Positions 21 through 40,682 of a DNA stretch of 64,000 nt are shown piece after piece. The notes beneath the pieces are model-generated. The model saw only the letters and a list, made by a program, of their open reading frames with translations, did not search any database and was not told where the DNA came from. Within the stretch, counting starts at the first letter, position 1. The number at the start of each line of letters is the position of its first letter. The stretch comes from Pseudosulfitobacter koreensis (lineage in GTDB: Bacteria; Pseudomonadota; Alphaproteobacteria; Rhodobacterales; Rhodobacteraceae), in assembly GCF_024733015.1 (NCBI RefSeq), contig NZ_JANKJG010000002.1:124001-188000 (forward strand), written 5' to 3'. A program made the position numbers and the translations under genes.

Positions 21-935
21 TCAAGCGTGCGCCTCAAGCCGTGCCAGTTCCGTGCGAAGCCCCGCCACAAGGTCGTCGGCAAAGCGGGTCAGCCGCGCGT
101 TGTTGCGGTCATCGGCGTGGCGGATCAGGTAGAACGCGCGTGTCAGGCTGATCCGGTCGGTCAGGATGCGCCGCAGGCCCGGTGCTGCGGGCAGCGCAAA
201 GTCGTGCACGATCCCCACCCCGCCTCCTGCGCGCAGCAGGTTCAGCTGCACCGAGACCGAATTCGACGCCAGCGCCGTGCGCGGCAGGCCGATATCGGCA
301 AGGTAATCCAGCTCGCGGTCGAAAATCATGTCGGGAATATAGCCGACGATCCTGTGCCCCTGCAGATCCGCCGTGATCGAGATGTGCGGATGCCGCGCCA
401 GATAACTGTCGGCTGCGGCCAGATGCAGACGGTAATCGGTGATCTTCTGCACCGTCAGCCGTCCGGCTGTGGGCGCGCTGACCCCGATGGCCAGATCCGC
501 CTCGCGGCGCGACAGGTTGAACACGCGCGGCAGCGCCACGACCTGAATGTCCAGATCGGGGTGACGGTCGGCAAGATCCGCGCAGACCTGCGGCATCAGG
601 TAGTTGGCGCAACCGTCCGGTGCCCCGATACGCACCTGCCCCGTCAGCCGGTCCGACCCCGCCCCCGACAATGTGGATGTGGCCGCGCGCATCGCTGTCT
701 CGGCGGCTTCGGCCTTGTCCAGCAGGGTCACACCCGCCTCGGTCAGCGCATAGCCTTGGGGGGATTTCACGAACAACGTGGCCCCCAGCGACGCCTCAAG
801 CCGTACCATCCGGCGGCCCAGCGTCGCGGGGTCCAGCCGCAGCGTCTTGCCCGCAGCCGTCAGGCTGGCCTCGCGGGCGATGGCCAGAAACAGACGCAGA
901 TCGTCCCAATGGGTGTCCACGATACCCCCCTTCAT
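21..935 (-). CDS. LysR-family transcriptional regulator
   Basis: This is a DNA-binding regulator of the LysR type, about 304 residues long. The N-terminal winged helix (roughly residues 8-67) has the usual pattern, with LTAAGKTLRLDPATLGRRMV as the recognition region and SPQGYALTEAG as the wing. The rest is a periplasmic-binding-like effector domain. An in-frame ATG 57 bases upstream exists, but the start at 935 (MKGGIVDTHWDDL) places the helix-turn-helix where LysR proteins normally have it. The gene is divergent from mmsA with about 100 bp between the starts. By the usual LysR arrangement it probably controls the valine catabolic operon; that is inference. The effector is unknown. Confidence 0.9.
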   Translation of the reverse strand: MKGGIVDTHWDDLRLFLAIAREASLTAAGKTLRLDPATLGRRMVRLEASLGATLFVKSPQGYALTEAGVTLLDKAEAAETAMRAATSTLSGAGSDRLTGQVRIGAPDGCANYLMPQVCADLADRHPDLDIQVVALPRVFNLSRREADLAIGVSAPTAGRLTVQKITDYRLHLAAADSYLARHPHISITADLQGHRIVGYIPDMIFDRELDYLADIGLPRTALASNSVSVQLNLLRAGGGVGIVHDFALPAAPGLRRILTDRISLTRAFYLIRHADDRNNARLTRFADDLVAGLRTELARLEAHA

Positions 936-993
936 TTTGCAAAAACGCAAGACTGTTTTGGAAAGATGCGCCTTTTCCATGTGTTTTTGCAAG
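935..993. promoter_or_regulatory. Two TTTTGCAA-type sites between the LysR gene and mmsA
   Basis: The short divergent spacer holds TTTTGCAAAA at 935-944, touching the LysR start codon, and TTTTTGCAAG at 984-993, just upstream of mmsA. The two copies are one AT-rich island apart in otherwise GC-rich DNA. They could be half-sites for the adjacent LysR protein, but no binding motif is known to me for it. Confidence 0.3.
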
Positions 994-1036
994 GCTAGAC
1001 TGCGCGCAACGGAACACCAACCCCAAAGGACACCCC

Positions 1037-2536
1037 ATGCAAGAGATGACGCATTACCTCAACGGCGAACACGTCAAGGGCACATCCGGCCGCTTTGCCG
1101 ACGTGATGAACCCCGCCACCGGCGAAGTGCAGGCGCGTGTGCCGCTGGCCAATGGCGAAGAGCTGGACAAGGCCGTGCAATACGCCGCCGCCGCTCAGCC
1201 GAAATGGGCCGCCACCAACCCCCAGCGCCGCGCCCGCGTGCTGATGAAGTTCGTCGACCTGCTGAACCGCGACATGGACAAGCTGGCCGAAGCGCTGAGC
1301 CGCGAACACGGCAAGACCCTGCCCGACGCCGCCGGTGACGTGCAGCGCGGTCTGGAAGTGGTCGAATACTGCATCGGCGCGCCGCAATTGCTGAAAGGTG
1401 AATTCACTGACAGCGCAGGCCCCGGCATCGACATGTATTCGATGCGTCAGGCGCTTGGCGTCACGGCGGGCATCACCCCCTTCAACTTCCCCGCGATGAT
1501 CCCGATGTGGATGTTCGCCCCGGCCATTGCCTGCGGCAACGCGTTCATCCTCAAACCCTCCGAGCGTGACCCCTCGGTGCCGCTGATGCTGGCCGAATTG
1601 CTGGAAGAGGCAGGCCTGCCCAAGGGCATCATCCAGGTGGTGAACGGCGACAAGGAAGCAGTGGACGCGATCCTGCATCACGACGTGATCCAGTCGGTCG
1701 GCTTTGTCGGATCGACCCCGATCGCGGAATACATCTATGCCACCGGCTGCGCCAACGGCAAACGGGTGCAGTGCTTTGGCGGCGCCAAGAACCACATGAT
1801 CATCATGCCCGACGCCGACATGGACCAGGCCGCCGATGCGCTGATCGGTGCCGGTTTCGGTGCGGCAGGCGAACGCTGCATGGCAATCTCGGTCGCTGTT
1901 CCCGTGGGCGACGAAACCGCCGACCGCCTGATGGAAAAGCTGATCCCGCGTGTCGAAAAGCTGAAAGTCGGCCCCTACACGGCTGGCAATGACGTCGACT
2001 ACGGCCCGGTCGTGACCGCCGCCGCCAAGGCCAACATCGAACGTCTGGTGCAGACCGGCATCGACCAGGGCGCAAAGCTGGTCGTCGATGGCCGCGACTT
2101 CAAGCTGCAAGGCTACGAAGACGGTTATTTCATCGGCCCGCATCTTTTTGACCATGCCACCAAGGACATGGACATCTACACCCAGGAAATCTTTGGCCCC
2201 GTGCTGACCTGTGTGCGCGCCCAGGACTACGAAGAGGCCTTGGGTCTGGCGATGGACCACGAATACGGCAACGGCACCGCGATCTTCACCCGCGACGGCG
2301 ATGCCGCCCGTGATTTCGCCAACCGGATCAACGTCGGCATGGTCGGCATCAACGTCCCGATCCCCGTGCCGCTGGCCTATCACACCTTTGGCGGCTGGAA
2401 GAAATCGGTCTTTGGCGACCTGAACCAACACGGCCCCGACGCGTTCAAGTTCTACACGCGGACCAAGACGGTCACCGCCCGCTGGCCTTCGGGCATCAAG
2501 GAAGGTGGCGAATTCTCTATCCCCGTGATGGAATGA
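1037..2536 (+). CDS. mmsA: Methylmalonate-semialdehyde dehydrogenase (CoA-acylating)
   Basis: This 499-residue cytoplasmic enzyme oxidises (S)-methylmalonate semialdehyde to propionyl-CoA, the last step of valine degradation (also used in inositol and thymine breakdown). It has the aldehyde dehydrogenase fold: an N-terminal NAD-binding region with GITPFNFPAMIPMWM, then GFVGSTPIAEYIY, then the catalytic cysteine at about residue 281 in AAGERCMAIS. The length is normal for the family. The start at 1037 follows an AAAGGA ribosome site; the open frame extends further upstream, but that part overlaps the LysR gene and has no family similarity. It is the first gene of an operon with acyl-CoA dehydrogenase, HIBCH and mmsB. 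Confidence 0.96.
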   Translation: MQEMTHYLNGEHVKGTSGRFADVMNPATGEVQARVPLANGEELDKAVQYAAAAQPKWAATNPQRRARVLMKFVDLLNRDMDKLAEALSREHGKTLPDAAGDVQRGLEVVEYCIGAPQLLKGEFTDSAGPGIDMYSMRQALGVTAGITPFNFPAMIPMWMFAPAIACGNAFILKPSERDPSVPLMLAELLEEAGLPKGIIQVVNGDKEAVDAILHHDVIQSVGFVGSTPIAEYIYATGCANGKRVQCFGGAKNHMIIMPDADMDQAADALIGAGFGAAGERCMAISVAVPVGDETADRLMEKLIPRVEKLKVGPYTAGNDVDYGPVVTAAAKANIERLVQTGIDQGAKLVVDGRDFKLQGYEDGYFIGPHLFDHATKDMDIYTQEIFGPVLTCVRAQDYEEALGLAMDHEYGNGTAIFTRDGDAARDFANRINVGMVGINVPIPVPLAYHTFGGWKKSVFGDLNQHGPDAFKFYTRTKTVTARWPSGIKEGGEFSIPVME

Positions 2537-2547
2537 TTTAGCCCGGT

Positions 2548-2640
2548 GCGGGCAGGTCATCGTGACCTGCCGCACCGCCAATCCTGAGGGGGCGGGCAGG
2601 TCATCGTGCCCTGCCCCCACCGCCAATCCTGAGGGGGCCT
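2548..2640. repeat. 44-bp tandem repeat with hairpins between mmsA and ybdK
   Basis: Two copies of a 44-bp unit lie head to tail (2548-2591 and 2592-2635), followed by the start of a third. Each copy contains an inverted repeat around GGCAGGTCATCGTG that can form a strong stem-loop; in copy 1 the stem extends to both sides of TCATCGTGA. Each copy ends in CCAATCCTGAGGGGG. The GAGGGGG of the second copy lies seven bases before the GTG start of the next gene and looks like its Shine-Dalgarno sequence. Confidence 0.85.
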
Positions 2641-2644
2641 GCCC

Positions 2645-3754
2645 GTGCAATCCGACTTTACCATCGGCATCGAAGAAGAATATCTGATGGTCGATTGCGA
2701 CAGCCTGCGCCTGTCCGACACACCTCAGGCGCTGATGGACGCCTGCCGCGAAGAATTGCAGGATCAGGTCTCGCATGAATTTCTGCAATGCCAGATCGAG
2801 GTCGGCACCAAGGTCTGCCGCACTACATCCGAGGCGCGCGACGACCTGCGCCGCCTGCGCAGCTGCATCGCCAAACATGCCCGCGACCACAACCTTGCCC
2901 CCCTCGCCGTGTCCTGCCACCCGTTTTCGGACTGGAAGAACCAGGAACACACCAGCAAGGCGCGCTATAGCGACCTGAAGCAGGACTACGAAGCCGTCGC
3001 GCGCCGCATGTTGATCTGCGGGATGCACGTGCATGTGGGCATCGACGACGAAAACCAGCGCATAGACCTGATGCCGCAGCTTTCCTATTTCCTGCCGCAC
3101 CTGCTGGCGCTGTCCACCTCATCGCCGTTCTGGCAGGGCGACGACACCGGCCTTGCGTCCTACCGGCTGTCGGTGTTCGACAACATGCCGCGCTCGGGCC
3201 TGCCTCCGAAATTTTCCAGCTGGGCCGAGTACACGCGCACCACTGGCACGCTGATTGAACTGGGCCTGATCGAAGACACCAGCAAGATCTGGTGGGATCT
3301 GCGCCCGTCGGACAAGTATCCCACGCTCGAGGCGCGCATCTGCGACGTCCAGCCACGGTTGCGCGATACCATCGCACTGGCCGGACTGACGCAGGCGCTG
3401 GTGCGAATGTTGACCCGGCTGCGCGACGCCAACCTGCGCTGGCGTGAATACGACCGTTTCCTGATCGCCGAAAACCGCTGGCGCGCGCAGCGCTATGGCG
3501 TGACCGAGGGGCTGATCGACTTCGGCGACCGCTCGATCAAACCGTTTCACGCCTTGCTGGACGAGTTGATTGCATTGGTCGCCGAGGATGCCGAGGCTCT
3601 GGGCGCGCTTGACGATATCGTGCGGCTGCGCGATGTCGTGACGCATGGGACAAGCGCCAGCCGCCAGCGCGCGGTGTTCGACGCCGCCCCCGAAGGTGAA
3701 GGTGGCGACGCCGTCGTGCGCCACCTGATCGAAGAATTTCATGAAGATCTGTAA
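2645..3754 (+). CDS. YbdK-family carboxylate-amine ligase (glutamate-cysteine ligase 2 type)
   Basis: This 369-residue protein belongs to the GCS2 family of ATP-dependent carboxylate-amine ligases; E. coli YbdK has weak glutamate-cysteine ligase activity. The N-terminal [12 protein letters not shown] signature with its acidic cluster, HVHVGID near residue 125 and the conserved RICDVQ region are present, and the length is typical. The start is GTG, with the ribosome site GAGGGGG supplied by a tandem repeat. It lies between mmsA and the acyl-CoA dehydrogenase, all on one strand, so it is probably co-transcribed with valine catabolism genes. Its real substrate is unknown, and a link to valine breakdown is only suggested by position. 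Confidence 0.88.
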
Positions 3755-3823
3755 GGTGACGAGAAGCGCCAGACAGACAATGCAGACCACATGCGCCATC
3801 GCGCGCATCCGGGAGGAGACCCA

Positions 3824-4966
3824 ATGGATTTCGCACTGACAGAAGAACAATCGGCCATCTTCGACATGGCCTACGGCTTTGGCCAGGACGCCATCGCCCC
3901 CCACGCCCGCACATGGGAAGCCCAAGGCACCATTCCCAAGGAGCTGTGGCCGCAAGTGGGCGAACTGGGCTTCGGCGGGCTCTACGTCTCCGAAGAATCC
4001 GGCGGCGCGGGGCTCGGCCGTCTCGACGCCACGCTGGTATTCGAGGCGCTCAGCATGGCCTGCCCGTCGGTCGCGGCGTTCCTGTCGATCCACAACATGT
4101 GCGCGCGGATGATCGACAGCTTTGCCAGCGACGACTTCAAGGCGCGGGTGCTGCCCGACGTGCTGACGATGCAGACCGTGCTCAGCTATTGCCTGACCGA
4201 ACCGGGATCAGGCTCGGACGCCGTGGCGCTGAAAACGCGCGCGGAGCGCACCAACGAAGGCTATGCCCTGAACGGCACCAAGGCGTTCATCTCGGGCGGC
4301 GGCTATTCCGACGCCTACGTCTGCATGGTGCGCACCGGCGACGCAGGCGCGGGCGGCGTCAGCACCGTCTACGTCGAGGACGGCACCGAGGGGCTGTCGT
4401 TCGGCGCGCTCGAGGACAAGATGGGCTGGCGGTCGCAACCCACGGCGCAGGTGCAGTTCGACAACTGCAACATCTCCGCCGACAACCTGATCGGTGAAGA
4501 AGGCAAGGGTTTCAAATACGCGATGATGGGTCTGGACGGCGGCCGCCTGAACATCGCCGCCTGTTCACTGGGGGCCGCGCAGACCGCGCTGACCTCGACA
4601 CTGAACTACATGGGCGAGCGCAAGGCATTCGGCCAGCCGATTGACCAGTTCCAGGGCCTGCAATGGCGGCTGGCCGACATGGAGATCGAACTTCAGGCCG
4701 CGCGGGTGTTCCTGCGGCAGGCCGCGTGGAAACTGGACCAGGGCGCGCCCGATGCGACCAAGTTCTGCGCGATGGCCAAGAAGTTCGTGACCGAAGCCGG
4801 GTCTAAGGTCGTCGACCAATGCCTGCAACTGCACGGCGGCTATGGCTATCTGGCCGACTACGGCATCGAAAAGCTGGTCCGCGATCTGCGGGTTCACCAG
4901 ATCCTCGAAGGCACCAACGAGATCATGCGCGTGATCGTCGCCCGCGACATGTTGAAAAACCGATGA
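3824..4966 (+). CDS. Acyl-CoA dehydrogenase, probably isobutyryl-CoA dehydrogenase
   Basis: This 380-residue FAD enzyme would oxidise isobutyryl-CoA to methacrylyl-CoA in valine degradation. Family signatures are CLTEPGSGSDA (the first acyl-CoA dehydrogenase signature), QLHGGYGYLADYGIEKLVRD near the C terminus, and the GTNEIMR tail. The start at 3824 (MDFALTEEQ) follows a clear GGGAGGA ribosome site; an ATG 33 bases earlier lies upstream of that site. The stop overlaps the ATG of the next gene (ATGA). Assignment to isobutyryl-CoA rather than another short branched acyl-CoA rests on the mmsA/HIBCH/mmsB neighbours. Confidence 0.92.
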   Translation: MDFALTEEQSAIFDMAYGFGQDAIAPHARTWEAQGTIPKELWPQVGELGFGGLYVSEESGGAGLGRLDATLVFEALSMACPSVAAFLSIHNMCARMIDSFASDDFKARVLPDVLTMQTVLSYCLTEPGSGSDAVALKTRAERTNEGYALNGTKAFISGGGYSDAYVCMVRTGDAGAGGVSTVYVEDGTEGLSFGALEDKMGWRSQPTAQVQFDNCNISADNLIGEEGKGFKYAMMGLDGGRLNIAACSLGAAQTALTSTLNYMGERKAFGQPIDQFQGLQWRLADMEIELQAARVFLRQAAWKLDQGAPDATKFCAMAKKFVTEAGSKVVDQCLQLHGGYGYLADYGIEKLVRDLRVHQILEGTNEIMRVIVARDMLKNR

Positions 4967-6015
4967 GCGATATTTCGATCAGAACGGTCGGCGTCGCCGG
5001 GCGCATCACCCTCACCCGCCCCAAGGCGCTGAACGCCGTGACCTACGAGATGTGTCTGGCCATCGAAGACGCCCTTGACCGCTGGCGCGACGACGCTGCG
5101 GTGCAATTGGTCATCATCGACGCCGAAGGCGACCGCGCGTTCTGTGCCGGTGGCGACATCGCCGATCTATACGCATCCGGCCGCAAGGGCGATTTCGCCT
5201 ATGGCCGAAAGTTCTGGGCTGACGAATACCGTCTGAACGCCAAGATTTTCACCTATCCCAAGCCTGTGGTCAGCTTCCTGCAAGGCTTCGTGATGGGTGG
5301 CGGTGTCGGCATTGGCTGCCACGGCTCGCACCGGATCGTCGGCGAAAGCAGCCAGATCGCCATGCCGGAGGTCGGCATCGGCCTGATCCCGGACGTGGGC
5401 GGCACGCTGATGCTGGCGCTGGCACCGGGGCGTGTGGGCGAATATCTGGGAACCACCGCCGCGCGCATGGGGGCGTCGGATGCAATTTTTGCAGGCTTTG
5501 CAGACACCTACATCTCGGAGTTGAAGTGGCCTGAATTGATCGCGGAGCTGGAATCCAGCGGCGATATCACCCTGCTGGACGCCGCTGCGGAAAAACCGGA
5601 TGCGGGACCAGTCGAAGCGCAGCAGAACGACATCGACCGGCATTTCGGCGGCGAAGCCTTGGGCGATATCCTGCGGTCGTTGCGCTCCGAAGACAGCGAG
5701 TTCGCCCGCGATACGCTGAAATCACTGAACCGTAACAGCCCGCTGTCGATGGCCTGCACCATCGAGGCGCTGCACCGGTTGCGCGGCCCGTCCCTGACCA
5801 TCGAAAAAGCGCTGGACCTGGAATATCGCTTTACCGCCCGCGCGATGGAGCACGGCGATTTCCTTGAAGGTATCCGCGCCGCGATCATCGACAAGGACCG
5901 CAGCCCGAACTGGCAATATGCGGACACGGACGTGCCGCCAAGTGCTGTCAGCAAGATGCTGCGCCCCTTGGCAGACACGGCACTGAAACTGGGCTTTGAA
6001 ACTGGGAGGAACTGA
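4963..6015 (+). CDS. 3-hydroxyisobutyryl-CoA hydrolase (enoyl-CoA hydratase/isomerase family)
   Basis: This 350-residue member of the crotonase superfamily is longer than a simple enoyl-CoA hydratase (about 260) and matches 3-hydroxyisobutyryl-CoA hydrolases in length. It has FCAGGDIADLYASG (CoA-binding/oxyanion hole), GGGVGIGCHGSHRI, and MPEVGIGLIPDVGGT, the HIBCH-like pattern with the catalytic glutamate. It would release 3-hydroxyisobutyrate from its CoA ester in valine degradation. It overlaps the upstream dehydrogenase by four bases, so the two are translationally coupled, and mmsB follows after three bases. A separate enoyl-CoA hydratase for methacrylyl-CoA is not seen in this operon and must be encoded elsewhere. 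Confidence 0.9.
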   Translation: MSDISIRTVGVAGRITLTRPKALNAVTYEMCLAIEDALDRWRDDAAVQLVIIDAEGDRAFCAGGDIADLYASGRKGDFAYGRKFWADEYRLNAKIFTYPKPVVSFLQGFVMGGGVGIGCHGSHRIVGESSQIAMPEVGIGLIPDVGGTLMLALAPGRVGEYLGTTAARMGASDAIFAGFADTYISELKWPELIAELESSGDITLLDAAAEKPDAGPVEAQQNDIDRHFGGEALGDILRSLRSEDSEFARDTLKSLNRNSPLSMACTIEALHRLRGPSLTIEKALDLEYRFTARAMEHGDFLEGIRAAIIDKDRSPNWQYADTDVPPSAVSKMLRPLADTALKLGFETGRN

Positions 6016-8128: not shown

Positions 8129-11008
8129 CTACTCGGCGGCGACCTTGCGCGCCTGCAACATCGGTTTCAGATAACGGCCCGTGTGGCTGGCCGCGACTTC
8201 GGCGACCTCTTCGGGCGTACCGGTGGCCACCACATGCCCGCCGCCATCGCCGCCCTCGGGGCCGATGTCGATCAGGTGGTCGGCGGTTTTCACCACGTCC
8301 AGGTTATGCTCGATCACCACGACCGAATTGCCCTGATCCACCAGTTCATGCAGCACTTCCAACAGCTTGCGGACGTCCTCAAAGTGCAGGCCGGTGGTCG
8401 GCTCGTCGAGGATATAGAGCGTGCGGCCCGTGGACCGGCGCGCCAGTTCCTTCGACAGCTTGACCCGCTGCGCCTCGCCGCCCGACAGGGTCGTCGCCTG
8501 CTGCCCGACCTTGATATAGCCCAGACCCACGCGCATCAGCGCGTCCATCTTCTCGCGGATCGACGGCACCGCCTGAAAGAACGTCTGCGCGTCTTCCACG
8601 GTCATGTCCAGCACGTCGGCAATCGACTTGCCCTTGAACGTGACCTCAAGCGTTTCGCGGTTATAGCGCTTGCCCTTGCAGGTTTCGCATTCGACATAGA
8701 CGTCGGGCAGGAAGTGCATCTCGATCTTGATGACGCCGTCGCCCTGGCACGCCTCGCAGCGTCCGCCCTTGACGTTGAAGCTGAAACGCCCCGGTTTGTA
8801 ACCGCGCGCCTTGGATTCCGGCAGGCCAGCGAACCAGTCGCGGATCGGGGTGAAGGCCCCGGTGTAAGTCGCTGGATTTGAACGCGGAGTCCGTCCAATC
8901 GGCCGCTGGTCGATGTCGATGACCTTGTCCAGATGCTCAAGCCCCTTGATCGTCTCGCAGGGGGCCGGTGTCTGGCGCGCGCCATTCAAGCGCATCGAGG
9001 CGGTCTTGAACAGCGTCTCGATGGTCAGCGTGGACTTGCCGCCGCCCGACACACCGGTGACGCAGACGAATTTGCCCAGCGGAAAATCGACAGTGATGTC
9101 GTGCAGATTGTTGCCAGACGCCTTGACCACCTTCACCGACTTTTTCTTGCCCTTGCGCCGGGTCGTGGGCACGGGGATCTCGCGCACACCGGTCAGATAC
9201 TGGCCGGTGATGCTGTCGGGGTTGGCGGCGATCTGGTCGGGTGTGCCGTGGGCCACAACGCGCCCTCCGTGCACCCCTGCACCCGGACCGATGTCAAAGA
9301 CGTAATCCGCCTCGCGGATTGCTTCCTCGTCATGTTCGACCACGATTACGGTGTTGCCCTGATCGCGCAGGTTTTTCAGCGTGCCAAGCAGCCGGTCGTT
9401 GTCGCGCTGGTGCAGACCGATGGACGGCTCGTCCAGCACATATAGAACGCCGGTTAGGCCGGAGCCGATCTGGCTGGCCAGCCGGATACGCTGGCTTTCG
9501 CCACCCGACAGCGTGCCGCTGTTGCGGCTGAGGGTCAGGTACTCAAGGCCCACGTTGTTCAGGAACCCCAGCCGCTCGCGGATCTCCTTGAGGATGGCGC
9601 GGGCGATCTCGTTCTTCTGGGCGCTGAGGTTCTCAGGCACGGTTTCGCACCAGGCAAAGGCCTCGCGGATCGACATCTCGACCACCTGCCCCGCATGCAG
9701 CAATTCGTCGGGCTTTTCGGACGGGCCGATCTTCACCGCCAGCGCCTCGGCGCGCAGACGGTAGCCGTTGCAGGTGCCGCAAGGGCGGTTGTTCTGATAG
9801 CGCTCGAACTCTTCGCGGACCCAGTTGCTGTCGGTCTCGCGGTAGCGGCGTTCCATGTTGGGAATGACGCCCTCGAACGTCCGGGTCACCGAATAGACGC
9901 GCCCGCCCTCGTCATAGCGGAAGGGGATTTCGTCCTTGCCAGAGCCGAACAGGAACACCTGTTTGACGTGCTCGTCCAGGTCTTTCCACTTGGTCTGCGC
10001 GTCAAATTCGTAATGCTTTGCAATGGCTTCGATGGTCTGCATGAAATAGGGCGACTTGCCCTTGCGCCACGGTGCCAGCGCGCCGTCATAAACCTTGAGG
10101 TTCTGATCCGGCACCACCAGCCGTTCATCAAAGAACAGCTCGACACCCAGGCCGTCGCAATCGGGGCACGCACCGAACGGCGCGTTGAACGAGAACAGGC
10201 GCGGCTCGATCTCGGGGATGGTGAAGCCGCTGACGGGGCAGGCAAATTTCTCGGAAAACGTCATGCGCTCGGGCTCGCCCTCGGCCGGGGCGGTTTCCAG
10301 AATGGCGATGCCGTCGGCCAGATCAAGCGCGGTGCGCAGGCTGTCGGCCAGTCGCGTCTCCAGCCCTTCGCGGACCACGATACGGTCGACGACCACATCG
10401 ATGTCATGGCGAAATTTCTTGTCCAGCGTCGGCGGTTCGTCCAGATCGTAGAACGCGCCATCGACCTTGACCCGCTGAAAGCCCTGCTTGCGCAACTCGA
10501 CGAATTCCTTGCGGTATTCGCCTTTGCGGTCGCGGATAATCGGCGCCAGAAGATAGGCGCGCGTGCCCTCCTCCATCGTCATGGTGCGATCGACCATGTC
10601 CTGCACCTGCTGCGCCTCGATGGGCTTGCCGGTGGCGGGCGAATAGGGCGTGCCGACACGCGCGAACAGCAGCCGCATGTAGTCATAGATCTCGGTCACG
10701 GTGCCCACGGTCGAACGCGGGTTCTTCGACGTGGTTTTCTGTTCAATGGAGATGGCAGGCGACAGGCCACTGATGTGGTCCACGTCGGGTTTCTGCATCA
10801 TATCAAGGAATTGGCGCGCATAGGCAGACAGCGATTCTACATAGCGGCGCTGCCCTTCGGCATAGATGGTGTCGAACGCCAGCGACGACTTGCCAGACCC
10901 CGACAGCCCGGTGATCACCACCAGCTGGTCGCGCGGAATGTCCACGTCGATGGATTTCAGATTGTGCTCGCGCGCGCCGCGCACTTCGATGTGTTTCTGC
11001 TCAGCCAT
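8129..11008 (-). CDS. uvrA: Excinuclease ABC subunit A
   Basis: UvrA is the damage-recognition ATPase of nucleotide excision repair, working with UvrB and UvrC. The 959 residues hold two ABC ATPase modules: Walker [11 protein letters not shown] near residue 31 and [10 protein letters not shown] near residue 650, each with an LSGGE(S/A)QR signature. Two CxxC...CxxC zinc modules are visible (CPVSGF...CPDCDGLG and CEACQGDG...CETCKG). The start at 11008 ([12 protein letters not shown]) is chosen because the frame upstream of it runs through the promoter and has no family similarity. A LexA-type box lies 65 bp upstream, so SOS induction is expected. Confidence 0.98.
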
Positions 11009-35361: not shown

Positions 35362-36177
35362 CTACAAGTCGTCGTTCTTACCCAGCATGTGGTTCATCGA
35401 AATCGCCGGCTGATCACAGCCCGCCTCGCCCACGATGCGCGCGGGAATACCCGCGACGGTCTTGCAGGGCGGCACCGATTCCAGCACGACGGACCCTGCG
35501 GCAATCCGGCTGCAATGGCCGATGGTGATGTTGCCCAGCACCTTGGCCCCTGCCCCGATCAGCACGCCATCGCCGATCTTGGGGTGGCGGTCCTGCTCTT
35601 CCTTGCCGGTCCCGCCCAGCGTCACCGAATGCAGCATCGACACGTTGTCACCCACCACCGCCGTCTCACCGATCACCACGGAATGCGCGTGGTCGATCAT
35701 GATGCCCTGTCCGATCCGTGCGGCGGGGTGAATGTCCACGCCGAAAATCTCGCTGACACGCATCTGAAAGAAATAGGCCAGATCGCGGTGCCCCTGTTCC
35801 CACAGGAAATGCCCGACACGGTAGGCCTGAACCGCCTGATAGCCCTTGAAATACAGGATCGGCTGCAACAGCCGGTGGCAAGCCGGATCGCGCTCGTATA
35901 CCGCCACCAGATCGGCACGCGCCGCGTCAATCAGCTCGGGCGATGCGGCATAGGCCTCTTCGACAATCTCGCGCACCACAACCATCGACATCTCGTTCGA
36001 CGCAAGCTTCGCGGCGATCCGGTAGCTCAGCGCCTTGTCAAAGGTCTTGTGATGCAGGATACACGCGTGCACGAAACCACCCACCAGCGGTTCGTCCTGC
36101 ACCGCCAGCCGGGCCTCGTCCGAGATCTGGTCCCACACCGGGTCCATCGCAGAGACGTTCGTTCGCAATTCAGCCAT
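35362..36177 (-). CDS. cysE: Serine O-acetyltransferase
   Basis: A 271-residue enzyme making O-acetylserine for cysteine synthesis. It has the N-terminal helical domain (up to about residue 140) and the left-handed beta helix with DIHPAARIGQGIMIDHAHSV, GDNVSMLHSVTLGGTGKE and KIGDGVLIGAGAKVLGNITI. The catalytic His-Asp residues are present. It is the gene next to the end of the GTA locus, a neighbour I recall for GTA clusters of Rhodobacterales. Confidence 0.96.
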   Translation of the reverse strand: MAELRTNVSAMDPVWDQISDEARLAVQDEPLVGGFVHACILHHKTFDKALSYRIAAKLASNEMSMVVVREIVEEAYAASPELIDAARADLVAVYERDPACHRLLQPILYFKGYQAVQAYRVGHFLWEQGHRDLAYFFQMRVSEIFGVDIHPAARIGQGIMIDHAHSVVIGETAVVGDNVSMLHSVTLGGTGKEEQDRHPKIGDGVLIGAGAKVLGNITIGHCSRIAAGSVVLESVPPCKTVAGIPARIVGEAGCDQPAISMNHMLGKNDDL

Positions 36178-36285: not shown

Positions 36286-36585
36286 TCAAAGGGGCGGATC
36301 AACTCGGCCCGGACGGTCACGCAAGCCCAGCAAAACCAGCGTCAGACAGTCGCAATAGCCCGCATCATCCAAGGTCGGCTCGGTCGCCAGCACCCGTTTT
36401 CGCGCCGCATCCGACAGGGTGCCATTGCCCCAAAGCGGGTGCGCGCGTCCGGTCCGACGGACGTGAAGATCGGCCCAGATCGCTTCGTTTATCATCCGGG
36501 CACTCAAGCCCGGGCGCTCTGACGCGGGCTGCGCCAAAAGCGCCCGCGCCGCATCGCGCAGGTCGGTCAGCAGCACCGCGCGCAT
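36286..36585 (-). CDS. Small GTA-locus protein (DUF7742-like)
   Basis: A 99-residue protein whose ATG overlaps the stop codon of the GTA fusion gene (TGATG). Features are RDAARALLAQPASERPGLSA, the motif RRTGRAHPLWGNGTLSDAA, and a Cys pair region DDAGYCDCLTLVL. I recall small proteins of this type downstream of the tail/host-specificity gene in GTA clusters of Rhodobacterales. Its function is unknown. It appears intact. Confidence 0.7.
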   Translation of the reverse strand: MRAVLLTDLRDAARALLAQPASERPGLSARMINEAIWADLHVRRTGRAHPLWGNGTLSDAARKRVLATEPTLDDAGYCDCLTLVLLGLRDRPGRVDPPL

Positions 36586-39056
36586 CACAGCGTAACCGCA
36601 ATGCGTCCTGCCAATCCCGCCCCATACCGCGCCGAGATCTGCGCGACCTCCAGCGTCAGGCCGCCCAGCGCCGCATCTGCGGCCTGTTCCGCCGCGCCAT
36701 AGGTCCACGCGGGCGCGCCGACCGTCTGTTCGCGCAGCACGGCACCCTCCCGCAGCACCCGCACACGGTAGCTTTCCACGTCTTCGCCCAAGGGCACCTC
36801 GGGCGTATCCCACCCGTCTCCGTCGATGCGCGTGCGCCTGATCCAGGTCAGCACCACATCGCCCGTGCCCAGCGCCTCGGCCCGCAGATGCACCGGCGCA
36901 TAGGGCCGCAGCCCGTTGCCGTCAAAGGCCTGCACCTGTGCCACAAAGCTGGGGTCGTCCAGACTGCGCCGTGCAGGACCAATCCGGTAATGTTGCGCCA
37001 CGCGCCGCATGCTGGCGGCCATCTCGATCTGCGTGGGCGTGCCGTTCATCAGCACCACCCAGGACCCCACAGGCCAGGCATCGGGCATCAGCGCGTCGGT
37101 GCCCAACTGCCCGCGCAACCGGTGGCGCAGCAGATATGTATCCGGCCCGATCAGTTCTGCGTCCCGAAACTGAAACAGCTCCCAATTGTCGCTGCTGCCA
37201 TCCCCGATCGCACACAGGTTGCGCCCGTTCAGCACCGCGGTTTCGGTCACCGCCGACAGTGTGCCATGCAGCAAGCGCACCTCAAGTGCTGCCCCCTCAT
37301 CCCAGATCCCCGGCGCATGGCAAACCAGCGTCGATTGCGCAAGGCCGATGACGGCCTCTTGCGCCACGACGGTGTTCAGCGCGAAATCCTCCTCGGTCGG
37401 CGCGCTGTAGACGGCCACCGATCCGGGCCAGGGCCGGGCCGTGATCGCCAGATGCGGCGCATGCGGAACCTCGTCGCCGGTCATCATCGGCAGGTCCAGA
37501 AAGAACGGCGACACCGGCACCGGCGGGACAAAGCCCCGCACCGTCGCCAGCAGGTCCTGCATGTCCGAGGGCGTATAGACCCCCGGTTCAATCCGCACCG
37601 CCTCAAGCATCTGCATCGCGCCCTGTTCCACCCGGTCCACGCGATATTGCCCCGTGCTGCCTTCGGCATCGGCCAGGGCGATCACATCCCCCGCACCGAC
37701 AGCCATCCACGACGGCGGCAGCGCCACACGCACCGTGTCGCGGGCCACCCGCGCCTCGATCAGCCAGCGCTCGGCCACCTGCCGCCCTTCGGCGCGCGTC
37801 ATCGCCAGAGCGATGTCCGAAGTGGCCACCGCCTGCGTTGCCTCGTCGGGCAACACCGCCTCTTCCGCGATGGTCTCAAAGTTGCCATCGGCCTGCACGA
37901 ACCGCAGACGCACACGCCCCACCATTTCGGCCTCGGCCTCGCGGATCTGCTCCAGCGTGCCTTCCATCTCTTCGCTCATGGCGAACTCGGGCGCAGGCAC
38001 ATCCGCCGTCACCAACCCGTCACGCGTTCGAAAGGTCAAAACCCCGTCCCGCTCGACCGCGTCAAAGCCATAGCGCAGCATCAGCGGCTGCAACGATGCA
38101 CGTGCATCGGCAACCTCGCCCACCACATAGCCGCGCACATACCCGTGCAAGGCCGAGGTGTCATAGGCCAAGAGCCCCGCCGCCGTGCAGATTTCCCCCA
38201 CCACAGACGCCAGCGTGCGCGCACCCGTGCGTCCGTTGATCCAGTGTCCACGGGTGTAATTGTCACCGTCGCTCCATTGCACGGTGTTGTTGGGAAAGAA
38301 CGGATAGGGCCGCATATCCCAGGCCCACACGAAACTGCGCGACAGATCCAGCATCGGCGCATTGTATTCAATCGACACCGGATTGCGCTCTGCCTGCCCC
38401 CAGTAGGAATAGATCGCCCGCAGGTATTGCTTCTGGATCAGATCGTCGCGCGCGCCGTTCGAATAATGCGGCAGATCGCTTTCCGATGATTTCGCGTCCA
38501 GAAACGTGTTGGGCTGGTTCGTGCCCTTGTCCACAGCGGCACAGCCCAGTTCATCCACCCAGGCCGCATCGAACTGCGGCCCGCGCAGCCCTTCGGGGTC
38601 ATGCGCGGAATGCACCGTCGCCACCGCCCCATTGGGCCACTCCAGCCGCTTGCGTGTGCCAACCCACTTGGGGCGGCGGTCGGGCGGCGAACAGGCCATG
38701 ATCCCGCTGTCGCCAAAGATCATCACCTCGCGCACCTGATCCTGCGTCTCGCCCACCAGCGCGACCCGTGTGCAGGCACCCGCATCAAAGGGCCGCGCGC
38801 CCTCGACCTTGCTGCGCACCCATTCGGCCCCCGCACGCGTCTTGCCCGCACCGCGCCCCCCCAGGATCACCCAGGCCCGCCAGTCGCCCTTGGGTGGCAA
38901 CTGATGCGGCATCGCCCAGAACTCGAACAAAAAAGGGAGGGCACGAAGCCCCCCCCTTCCGATTTCGTTAAGAAAAGTCTCTCGCTCTTGAACAGTGGCG
39001 CAAGCGATCAAGTCTGCACCCGATCTCAGTCCTTGCGGCGTCGAGGTCAAGAGCAT
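36585..39056 (-). CDS. Chimeric GTA gene: terminase large subunit ATPase half fused to tail/host-specificity protein C-terminal half
   Basis: With the ATG at 39056 the product has 823 residues. Residues 1-168 match the start of a GTA terminase large subunit: LPFLFEFWAMPHQLPP, Walker A GGRGAGKTRAGAEWVR (about 66-81), and GLRGPQFDAAWVDEL with Walker B. At about residues 168-172 (nt 38541-38560) it switches to the end of the GTA TIM-barrel region of the tail/host-specificity protein (GCAAVDKGTNQPN, DAKSSESDLPHYSNGARDD). It then continues without a break through the phage-tail and C-terminal domains. The terminase nuclease domain, portal, protease, capsid, head-tail and most tail genes are gone. 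The start is uncertain (TTG at 39011 possible). Best read as the in-frame scar of a deletion of roughly 11 kb; activity is unlikely. Confidence 0.85.
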   Translation of the reverse strand: MLLTSTPQGLRSGADLIACATVQERETFLNEIGRGGLRALPFLFEFWAMPHQLPPKGDWRAWVILGGRGAGKTRAGAEWVRSKVEGARPFDAGACTRVALVGETQDQVREVMIFGDSGIMACSPPDRRPKWVGTRKRLEWPNGAVATVHSAHDPEGLRGPQFDAAWVDELGCAAVDKGTNQPNTFLDAKSSESDLPHYSNGARDDLIQKQYLRAIYSYWGQAERNPVSIEYNAPMLDLSRSFVWAWDMRPYPFFPNNTVQWSDGDNYTRGHWINGRTGARTLASVVGEICTAAGLLAYDTSALHGYVRGYVVGEVADARASLQPLMLRYGFDAVERDGVLTFRTRDGLVTADVPAPEFAMSEEMEGTLEQIREAEAEMVGRVRLRFVQADGNFETIAEEAVLPDEATQAVATSDIALAMTRAEGRQVAERWLIEARVARDTVRVALPPSWMAVGAGDVIALADAEGSTGQYRVDRVEQGAMQMLEAVRIEPGVYTPSDMQDLLATVRGFVPPVPVSPFFLDLPMMTGDEVPHAPHLAITARPWPGSVAVYSAPTEEDFALNTVVAQEAVIGLAQSTLVCHAPGIWDEGAALEVRLLHGTLSAVTETAVLNGRNLCAIGDGSSDNWELFQFRDAELIGPDTYLLRHRLRGQLGTDALMPDAWPVGSWVVLMNGTPTQIEMAASMRRVAQHYRIGPARRSLDDPSFVAQVQAFDGNGLRPYAPVHLRAEALGTGDVVLTWIRRTRIDGDGWDTPEVPLGEDVESYRVRVLREGAVLREQTVGAPAWTYGAAEQAADAALGGLTLEVAQISARYGAGLAGRIAVTL

Positions 39057-39309
39057 AGCCACCCTGCGCGATGAGGGATTGTTTCCGACGACATTCTGCA
39101 ACTTGTGTCTCCAGTTTCATACAGGTCTCAAGCGACGATCGCAGCGAGGCAACCGTCGCCTTTACATCTTTTGCATCCGCATCCCCCCCGTTCCGCGCCT
39201 CCTCTTTCAAGAAAACGAGCTGCTCACGAAGCTCTCCGAGCTCACGGTAAACCGTGGCCAATGCCTGTTGGATCTGCTCGGCATCCTCTTCCGGGGTTAT
39301 GATGATCAT
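38968..39309 (-). CDS. GTA first gene, probable small terminase subunit
   Basis: A 113-residue protein at the head of the GTA remnant. It is mostly helical with a likely coiled coil (EQIQQALATVYRELGELREQ). The C-terminal ALDLDAARTEIGCRLDRLR resembles the conserved end of GTA gene 1 products as I remember them. In R. capsulatus gene 1 encodes the small terminase. The gene overlaps the start of the fusion gene by up to 89 bases. It appears intact, so the cluster's left end survived the deletion. Confidence 0.65.
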   Translation of the reverse strand: MIIITPEEDAEQIQQALATVYRELGELREQLVFLKEEARNGGDADAKDVKATVASLRSSLETCMKLETQVAECRRKQSLIAQGGYALDLDAARTEIGCRLDRLRHCSRARDFS

Positions 39310-39521: not shown

Positions 39522-40682
39522 TCAGTTCTCCTGCGCAGGTTGGCGCGCCTCGATCTCACGCCATCTGGCGACGTTGCGGTTGTGCTCGTCCAGCGTTGTG
39601 GCAAAGGCATGGCCACCGGTGCCATCGGCCACGAAGAACACGAACTCGGTGCTGTCGGGCCGCGCCGCCGCTTCCAGACTTGCGCGTCCGGGGTTGGCAA
39701 TCGGCGTCGGCGGCAAGCCTTCGATCACATAGGTGTTCCACGGCGTGGCCCCCCGCAGTTCCGACTGCCGCAGGCCACGGCCCAGCACGCCCTCACCCTT
39801 GGTGATGCCATAGATCACCGTGGGGTCGGTCTGCAGCCGCATGCCCTGATTGAGCCGATTGACGAATACGCTCGCGACCTGACGCCGCTCTTCGGGCACG
39901 CCGGTTTCCTTTTCGATGATCGACGCAAGGATCAGAAGCTCCTCGGGTGTGCTCACAGGCAGATTGTCGTCGCGCCCTTCCCAGGCCGCCGCCACCAGAA
40001 CCTCCTGCGCCGCTTCCATACGCGCCAGAATGGCCGCACGGTCGTCGCCGGGCCGCACTTCATAACTGTCAGGGGCCAATGCACCCTCGGCAGGCACCTC
40101 CGGCACCTCGCCCTCCAGCAGGTCGATCCCGCGCAGCGCCTCGGTCACCTGCCAGCTTGTCACACCTTCGGCGACCGCCACCCGGAACCGCGTATCGGCC
40201 TTGGCCTTCACGTCCGTATAGATTTCCGGTGTCTCGTCGACACCCTGATCGAACTCGGCCCGCTCCACGAACGCGCTGGTTGCAGGGTCCAGTTCGCGCA
40301 CCTGAACCGACACCCGGTTCACACCGACGCGGTACACCACTTCGGTGCCGCAGGTGCTGGCCCCGCCACGGGTGACCACATCCACGATCTGCTCCATCGA
40401 CGCGCCCGGCTCCACCAGAAAGCTGCCGGCCTTCAACAGATCGGTCTTCTCGGCGTAATCCGCACCGATGCGCAGGATCGGGCCGCTGGTCACAGCCCCC
40501 TGATCCACCAGCGACGCGCTCACACGATCAAAGTTCGTCCCACGCGGCACTTCAACGCAAATGGCATCCGTCAGCGGCCCAGCGGCCTGATACTGCCCCT
40601 TGCCCCACAAGATTACGCCGCCCAGCAAGAACATGGCCAGCAACAGGAACGTCAGCGCGTTCGACGCGATATGCCGCCACAT
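39522..40682 (-). CDS. mltG: Endolytic murein transglycosylase
   Basis: A 386-residue inner-membrane enzyme that cleaves nascent glycan strands. It has one membrane helix (about residues 8-27) and the YceG-like fold with the catalytic Glu in ILASIIEKETGVPEERR. Family motifs LQTDPTVIYGIT and TPWNTYVIEGLPPTPIANPG are also present. The start overlaps the fabF stop (TGATG), so translation is coupled to fatty acid synthesis genes. Confidence 0.95.
   Translation of the reverse strand: MWRHIASNALTFLLLAMFLLGGVILWGKGQYQAAGPLTDAICVEVPRGTNFDRVSASLVDQGAVTSGPILRIGADYAEKTDLLKAGSFLVEPGASMEQIVDVVTRGGASTCGTEVVYRVGVNRVSVQVRELDPATSAFVERAEFDQGVDETPEIYTDVKAKADTRFRVAVAEGVTSWQVTEALRGIDLLEGEVPEVPAEGALAPDSYEVRPGDDRAAILARMEAAQEVLVAAAWEGRDDNLPVSTPEELLILASIIEKETGVPEERRQVASVFVNRLNQGMRLQTDPTVIYGITKGEGVLGRGLRQSELRGATPWNTYVIEGLPPTPIANPGRASLEAAARPDSTEFVFFVADGTGGHAFATTLDEHNRNVARWREIEARQPAQEN

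Follow-up and report, generated by a model that had tools for sequence, protein, structure and literature searches.

What is left of a gene transfer agent (GTA) once its particle genes are gone, and why should the remnant be joined at one and the same codon boundary in genus after genus? The question is raised by a locus in the window, the 64,000-nucleotide stretch of the Pseudosulfitobacter koreensis genome analysed here (contig NZ_JANKJG010000002.1, positions 124,001 to 188,000), in which the large terminase subunit (TerL) runs in frame into the tail protein known as megatron. Pseudogenisation and complete loss of GTAs have been published together with the cheater hypothesis (PMC10883770), and how GTAs hold out against cheaters is an unsolved question (PMC6209664; PMC10883770), which the fused allele described below makes concrete and assayable. 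In the literature on truncated or cheater GTAs and on terminase fusions no prior description of a recurrent, codon-exact terminase-megatron fusion was found, and the novelty claimed in a preliminary description of this DNA thus holds for the literature searched.

Structure of the locus

On the minus strand the locus reads mltG, g1, a long fused frame, a gp15.1-like gene and cysE (Table 1), which bears out the earlier view of a collapsed GTA locus between cysE and mltG that retains g1, a TerL-megatron fusion and gp15.1 and has lost the particle genes. The long open frame spans 36585-39101, and its best start, the ATG at 39056, gives a protein of 823 aa, the stop of which overlaps the start of the gp15.1-like gene (TGATG). 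Searches with Pfam and NCBIfam find Terminase_6N at residues 79-185 (counted on a version 15 residues longer than the 823-aa protein), followed by the end of GTA_TIM, Phage-tail_3 and Rcc01698_C. The TerL half carries Walker A (GGRGAGKT) and Walker B (WVDE, its last Glu at the junction) and stops there, the nuclease half being absent. The megatron half, matched by the NF048004 "GTA_megatron" profile of 1299 positions, covers the end of the TIM barrel, the hub domain, the Rcc01698_C domain and the C-terminal domains; it resembles chain 8A of the RcGTA particle (6tba) both in fold (55% identity in the aligned part) and in sequence (E 7e-237). An in-frame terminase-tail fusion with Walker A and B kept and the nuclease lost, as well as the homology of the residues after the junction to GTA tail proteins, had both been proposed and are confirmed by the frame, the profile matches and the position of the junction.

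Table 1. Features of the GTA site, with their positions in the window
Feature	Position	Strand	Remarks
mltG	39522..40682	-	upstream flank of GTA site; same neighbour at fused and intact loci
g1, GTA small terminase (TerS), 113 aa	38968..39309	-	85% against g1 from intact clusters
TerL (g2) N-terminal ATPase half of fusion, 168 codons	38553..39056	-	Terminase_6N; 82-85% identity to TerL of congeners
junction GAT|GAA	38550..38555	-	Asp supplied by TerL, Glu codon by megatron; crossover inside shared GA
megatron (gp15) C-terminal half of fusion, 655 codons + stop	36585..38552	-	NF048004 640-1297; PF13547/PF13550/PF23666
gp15.1-like last gene (DUF7742)	36286..36585	-	PF24891
cysE	35362..36177	-	downstream flank of GTA site; same neighbour at fused and intact loci

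When placed against the intact terminase and megatron of three congeners (G005, G003 and G001), the junction falls at 38553|38552 (WVD|ELGC). Where the cluster is intact in congeners, 11.3 kb separate the two joined sites; the deletion starts directly behind the Walker B Glu of TerL and reaches the corresponding Glu in the TIM barrel of megatron, both swapped segments ending in Trp-x-x-Glu. A search of the whole window genome (3.48 Mb) returned a single terminase match, no second megatron copy and no GTA capsid, so that the capsid which might have been sought elsewhere in the genome did not turn up. Of the features of a functional RcGTA-like cluster, the mltG-cysE site with g1 in first place is present, the capsid and a complete TerL with nuclease are absent. 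The locus cannot make particles, since all head genes and most tail genes are missing, and the strain is presumably a GTA non-producer.

Recurrence of the junction

The same junction is found in another species of the genus (G002, record JAGXHE010000170.1, the MAG Sulfitobacter sp. LH_M55), the sequence of which matches that of the window at 88.9% identity over 14 kb, straight across the junction. As the two species are 11% apart in DNA, the idea of a very recent deletion private to the strain does not survive. The remaining four species of the genus are unfused, three of them with the terminase-megatron spacing kept and one (G004) with a different, smaller deletion. In the latter (L033, 5220-5879) TerL runs from its residue 161 into the prohead protease near residue 137, with loss of portal and capsid and retention of the whole tail module, including a full megatron.

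A first hint of wider occurrence came from a contig search, in which the terminase and megatron pieces of six further loci were separated by six to ten bases, as they are in the window. With a 67-aa junction query the fusion was detected in 17 genera out of the 394 sampled in the family and, within Sulfitobacter, in 4 of 62 species, in searchable collections that hold one genome per species. Altogether, the search of relatives for the same scar gives at least 24 fused genomes in at least 17 genera, about 4% of the genera of the family. In other families of the class no fusion was seen among 385 genomes, only a few dozen of which carry the megatron site, and IMG/VR returned unfused GTA relatives only, with no exact match to the junction pattern. 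One megatron match in a 1.7-Mb genome (G531:C1:1672948-1673097) lies in an open frame of 32,612 codons, which is probably a stretch of N.

Across the 24 genomes the junction is identical codon for codon, without indels. It reads xDE|xGC in every case; the second x varies among Leu, Tyr, Phe, Ile, Met and Thr and is mostly that of related megatrons. The fused loci sit in the native GTA site wherever the flanks are present, and g1 stands in front in 24 of 24, while gp15.1 is often absent or undetected in fused and intact loci alike. Among the 23 complete fused frames 20 are open, and all 20 have invariant Walker A and B motifs, save for the residue before DE; three genes are broken by a frameshift or stop (L154, L063 and L168), and one further gene is cut by a contig end (L163). 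The GTA capsid gene was found in none of the 18 fused genomes tested, four of which have prophage-like matches at no more than 34% identity, and a GTA body relocated elsewhere in the fused genomes was looked for and not found. This recurrence in G002 and 22 further genomes excludes chance for the junction. An assembly or binning artefact, which the 20 contigs and 90% completeness of the window genome might have suggested, can be dismissed, given that there is no homology to cause a misjoin and that independent assemblies have the same junction, from the sister species to single-contig or near-closed genomes of other genera (among them the 4.19-Mb chromosome contig of G084/G473).

Distribution on trees

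The fused genomes are interspersed with relatives having intact clusters, often as singletons. The fused label requires 17 changes on the tree built from the megatron part, and supported branches force 13 of them; the corresponding figures are 15 and 14 for terminase plus megatron, and 20 and 15 for the flanking genes. Simple vertical inheritance of one deletion is excluded by this scatter. Sulfitobacter CW3 (L051), for instance, is fused and nests with the intact locus of S. marinus (L239), its sequence being native on either side of the breakpoint. In fused genomes the GTA core agrees with the flanking genes to about the same degree as in intact ones. In the Sulfitobacter loci L051, L239 and L224, the g1 region (g1 and the start of TerL) is 89-99% identical, the neighbouring genes mostly 80-90%, a local pattern that suggests recombination around the start of the GTA.

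Selection on the retained parts

Comparison of the window with G002 gave dN/dS values of 0.173 for the terminase part, 0.135 for the megatron part, 0.104 for g1 and 0.137 for gp15.1 (0.158 overall); the values for the fusion fall in the range of pairs without a fused member, which give 0.05-0.17 for the terminase part and 0.106-0.153 for the megatron part. The window fusion thus has neither the broken frame nor the relaxed selection of a decaying remnant. In 14 triples of a fused, an intact and an outgroup sequence, the fused lineages were in no domain faster than their intact sisters at the p<0.05 level, with 73 against 82 changes in the ATPase core and 208 against 226 in the hub; the largest excess in fused lineages, 45 against 29, lies in the stretch directly behind the junction (p 0.08). 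Where sites are otherwise invariant, excess deviation comes mainly from the L156/L159 pair, around which the genera were sampled with one genome each, and from a few divergent lineages.

Equal constraint in fused and intact sequences leaves three possibilities: the fusions arose recently, they have a function, or recombination with intact alleles preserves them. The open frame and the dN/dS of 0.13-0.17 are compatible with the earlier proposal of a fusion kept under selection, and they stop short of establishing it, since continued recombination between the remnant and intact alleles should leave the very same signature.

Why one codon boundary

Several local causes of the exact junction were considered and set aside. 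The microhomology suspected at the outset amounts, in many lineages, to GA or GAR only (2-3 bp), and the local similarity of the two sites is outranked by about 100 to 5000 of the roughly 5400 diagonals between the two genes, which leaves no homology hot spot. Conserved recognition DNA, sought at both sites by synonymous constraint, was not found (relative synonymous entropy 0.88 and 0.92 near the two sites, 0.83 and 0.87 farther off), and no dyad or repeat was noticed by eye; a conserved recombinase site is accordingly not supported. The AlphaFold model, built on an alignment of 20 sequences only, is confident in the ATPase half (about residues 70-168), disordered after the junction (pLDDT <50 at 170-208 and 240-278) and mostly confident in the tail part, which matches megatron and other tail-tip proteins; exactness imposed by the fold is not supported on this basis. 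Horizontal import of a junction tract likewise found no support: there is no foreign sequence at the breakpoint, the fusions have no common haplotype even within 15 bp of the junction, and discordance of flanks and core shows no clear excess over intact genomes.

Other deletions of GTA clusters have junctions that all differ from each other and are mostly out of frame, which makes the repeated junction exceptional. Decaying clusters were seen at L037, L038, L073, L087, L107 and L118. At L073 (11517-13650) and L107 (9339-11638) the portal is joined to megatron (at 745 and 759, respectively) out of frame, with TerL complete. A terminase-megatron fusion at L042 (G023, 8558-10219) is in frame and has an open frame of 615 aa, but its junction is another one, from about position 67 of TerL to about 800 of megatron.

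Origin of the fused allele

When breakpoints coincide in the absence of homology, identity by descent is the usual cause, and for this reason the reading preferred here, tentatively and with somewhat less than even confidence, is that the junction stems from one old deletion and spreads or persists as a GTA-null allele, recombination keeping its flanks native. A single loss of some 11.3 kb between the Walker B Glu of TerL and the TIM barrel Glu of megatron, for which a GARCTGG microhomology may have served, would have made the fusion one time only in the family, and the fused allele would then have persisted as a minor allele or moved between lineages, its carriers being non-producers among producers. 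DNA taken up by the cell, some of it carried by GTAs in pieces smaller than the cluster, may overwrite the flanks of the remnant up to the breakpoint and would be unable to restore the missing 11 kb, so that the 2.5-kb frame could stay open, with native flanks, even if the fusion protein had no function. Functional GTA fragments may reach GTA-negative cells or mutants, and the particle capacity is below the size of the cluster (PMC6209664); it is this delivery of fragments by producers that makes repair by recombination attractive. The exact junction in 24 genomes, the differing junctions of other GTA deletions, the scatter on trees, the failure of microhomology to account for recurrence, the lack of a conserved recombinase site and a constraint equal to that of intact sisters speak for this reading. 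Against it, homogenisation would have to be complete within 15 bp of the junction, the GTA core follows the flanks without a trace of introgression, and persistence across the whole family is a strong demand.

A live but more doubtful rival holds that selection has created the fusion many times, as a TerS plus TerL-ATPase/megatron-C module with a function of its own, for example a poison subunit that attaches to the terminase and tail components of RcGTA-like phages entering the cell, only those junctions being retained that keep WxDE/xGC. A separate function is possible, as the kept pair consists of gp1 and its TerL ATPase partner, to which gp1 binds (PMC6854486), in a domain cut short after Walker B. 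The constant presence of g1, the proportion of open frames, the invariant Walker motifs, purifying selection on all retained parts, the common Trp-x-x-Glu end of the swapped segments and the open frames of the deep sister fusions L156/L159 are all in line with it. However, the model has no folded chimeric domain at the junction, so the fold does not demand exactness to the codon, and yet shifted junctions are not seen; constraint identical to that of an intact GTA in every domain would be odd for a new function, and three fused genes are broken. In its strongest form, in which the g1-fusion pair is a functional module made repeatedly at one codon and acts as a terminase/tail poison subunit that renders the locus GTA-null and phage-interfering, the proposal appears unlikely.

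Recurrent precise excision, by some site-specific mechanism that cuts at GAY^GAR and ACS^GAR and repeatedly yields young, identical deletions, is a live rival of lower probability still. It would account for a junction exact to the nucleotide around a core of 2-3 bp (GA/GAR), for native sequence up to the breakpoint and for scattered singletons, most fused lineages showing no sign of age, but neither site has a conserved DNA signature, no recombinase is known in the cluster and no relocated GTA body turned up in the fused genomes. Still less credible is ordinary decay, in which the fusion is a random deletion scar on the way to complete loss, with no common cause. Alphaproteobacteria commonly lose their GTAs or carry them as pseudogenes (PMC10883770) and decaying clusters do occur, as listed above, but random scars would neither recur at one codon boundary amid intact lineages nor stay open and constrained; recurrence together with the absence of a homology hot spot largely refutes this explanation.

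The fusion may be an ancient producer/non-producer polymorphism kept legible through GTA-borne repair, or a repeatedly selected new protein, or the product of a precise excision mechanism, and any of these would be surprising if true.

Comparison with known systems

The window locus is homologous to the RcGTA-like structural gene cluster of Rhodobacterales in its mltG-cysE site, gene order, g1, the N-terminal half of TerL, the C-terminal half of megatron and gp15.1, and differs from it by the lack of about 11.3 kb, from the C-terminal half of TerL to the N-terminal half of megatron, with portal, protease, capsid, tape-measure and other tail genes. With RcGTA TerL (g2) and gp1 it has in common the ATPase core with Walker A and B and the adjacent TerS; the fusion, however, has neither the nuclease domain nor the remainder of the ATPase domain, and its C-terminus is tail sequence. 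Relative to the megatron (gp15) baseplate protein (6tba, 8gtc), the fusion retains the hub and C-terminal domains, whereas the first half is missing and the TIM barrel is cut to its last third. Finally, the "cheater" lineages with pseudogenised or lost GTAs (PMC10883770) have reached the same non-producer state from a GTA-positive ancestor, but the fused loci, unlike theirs, are undecayed and consist of one open, constrained frame with the same junction in at least 17 genera.
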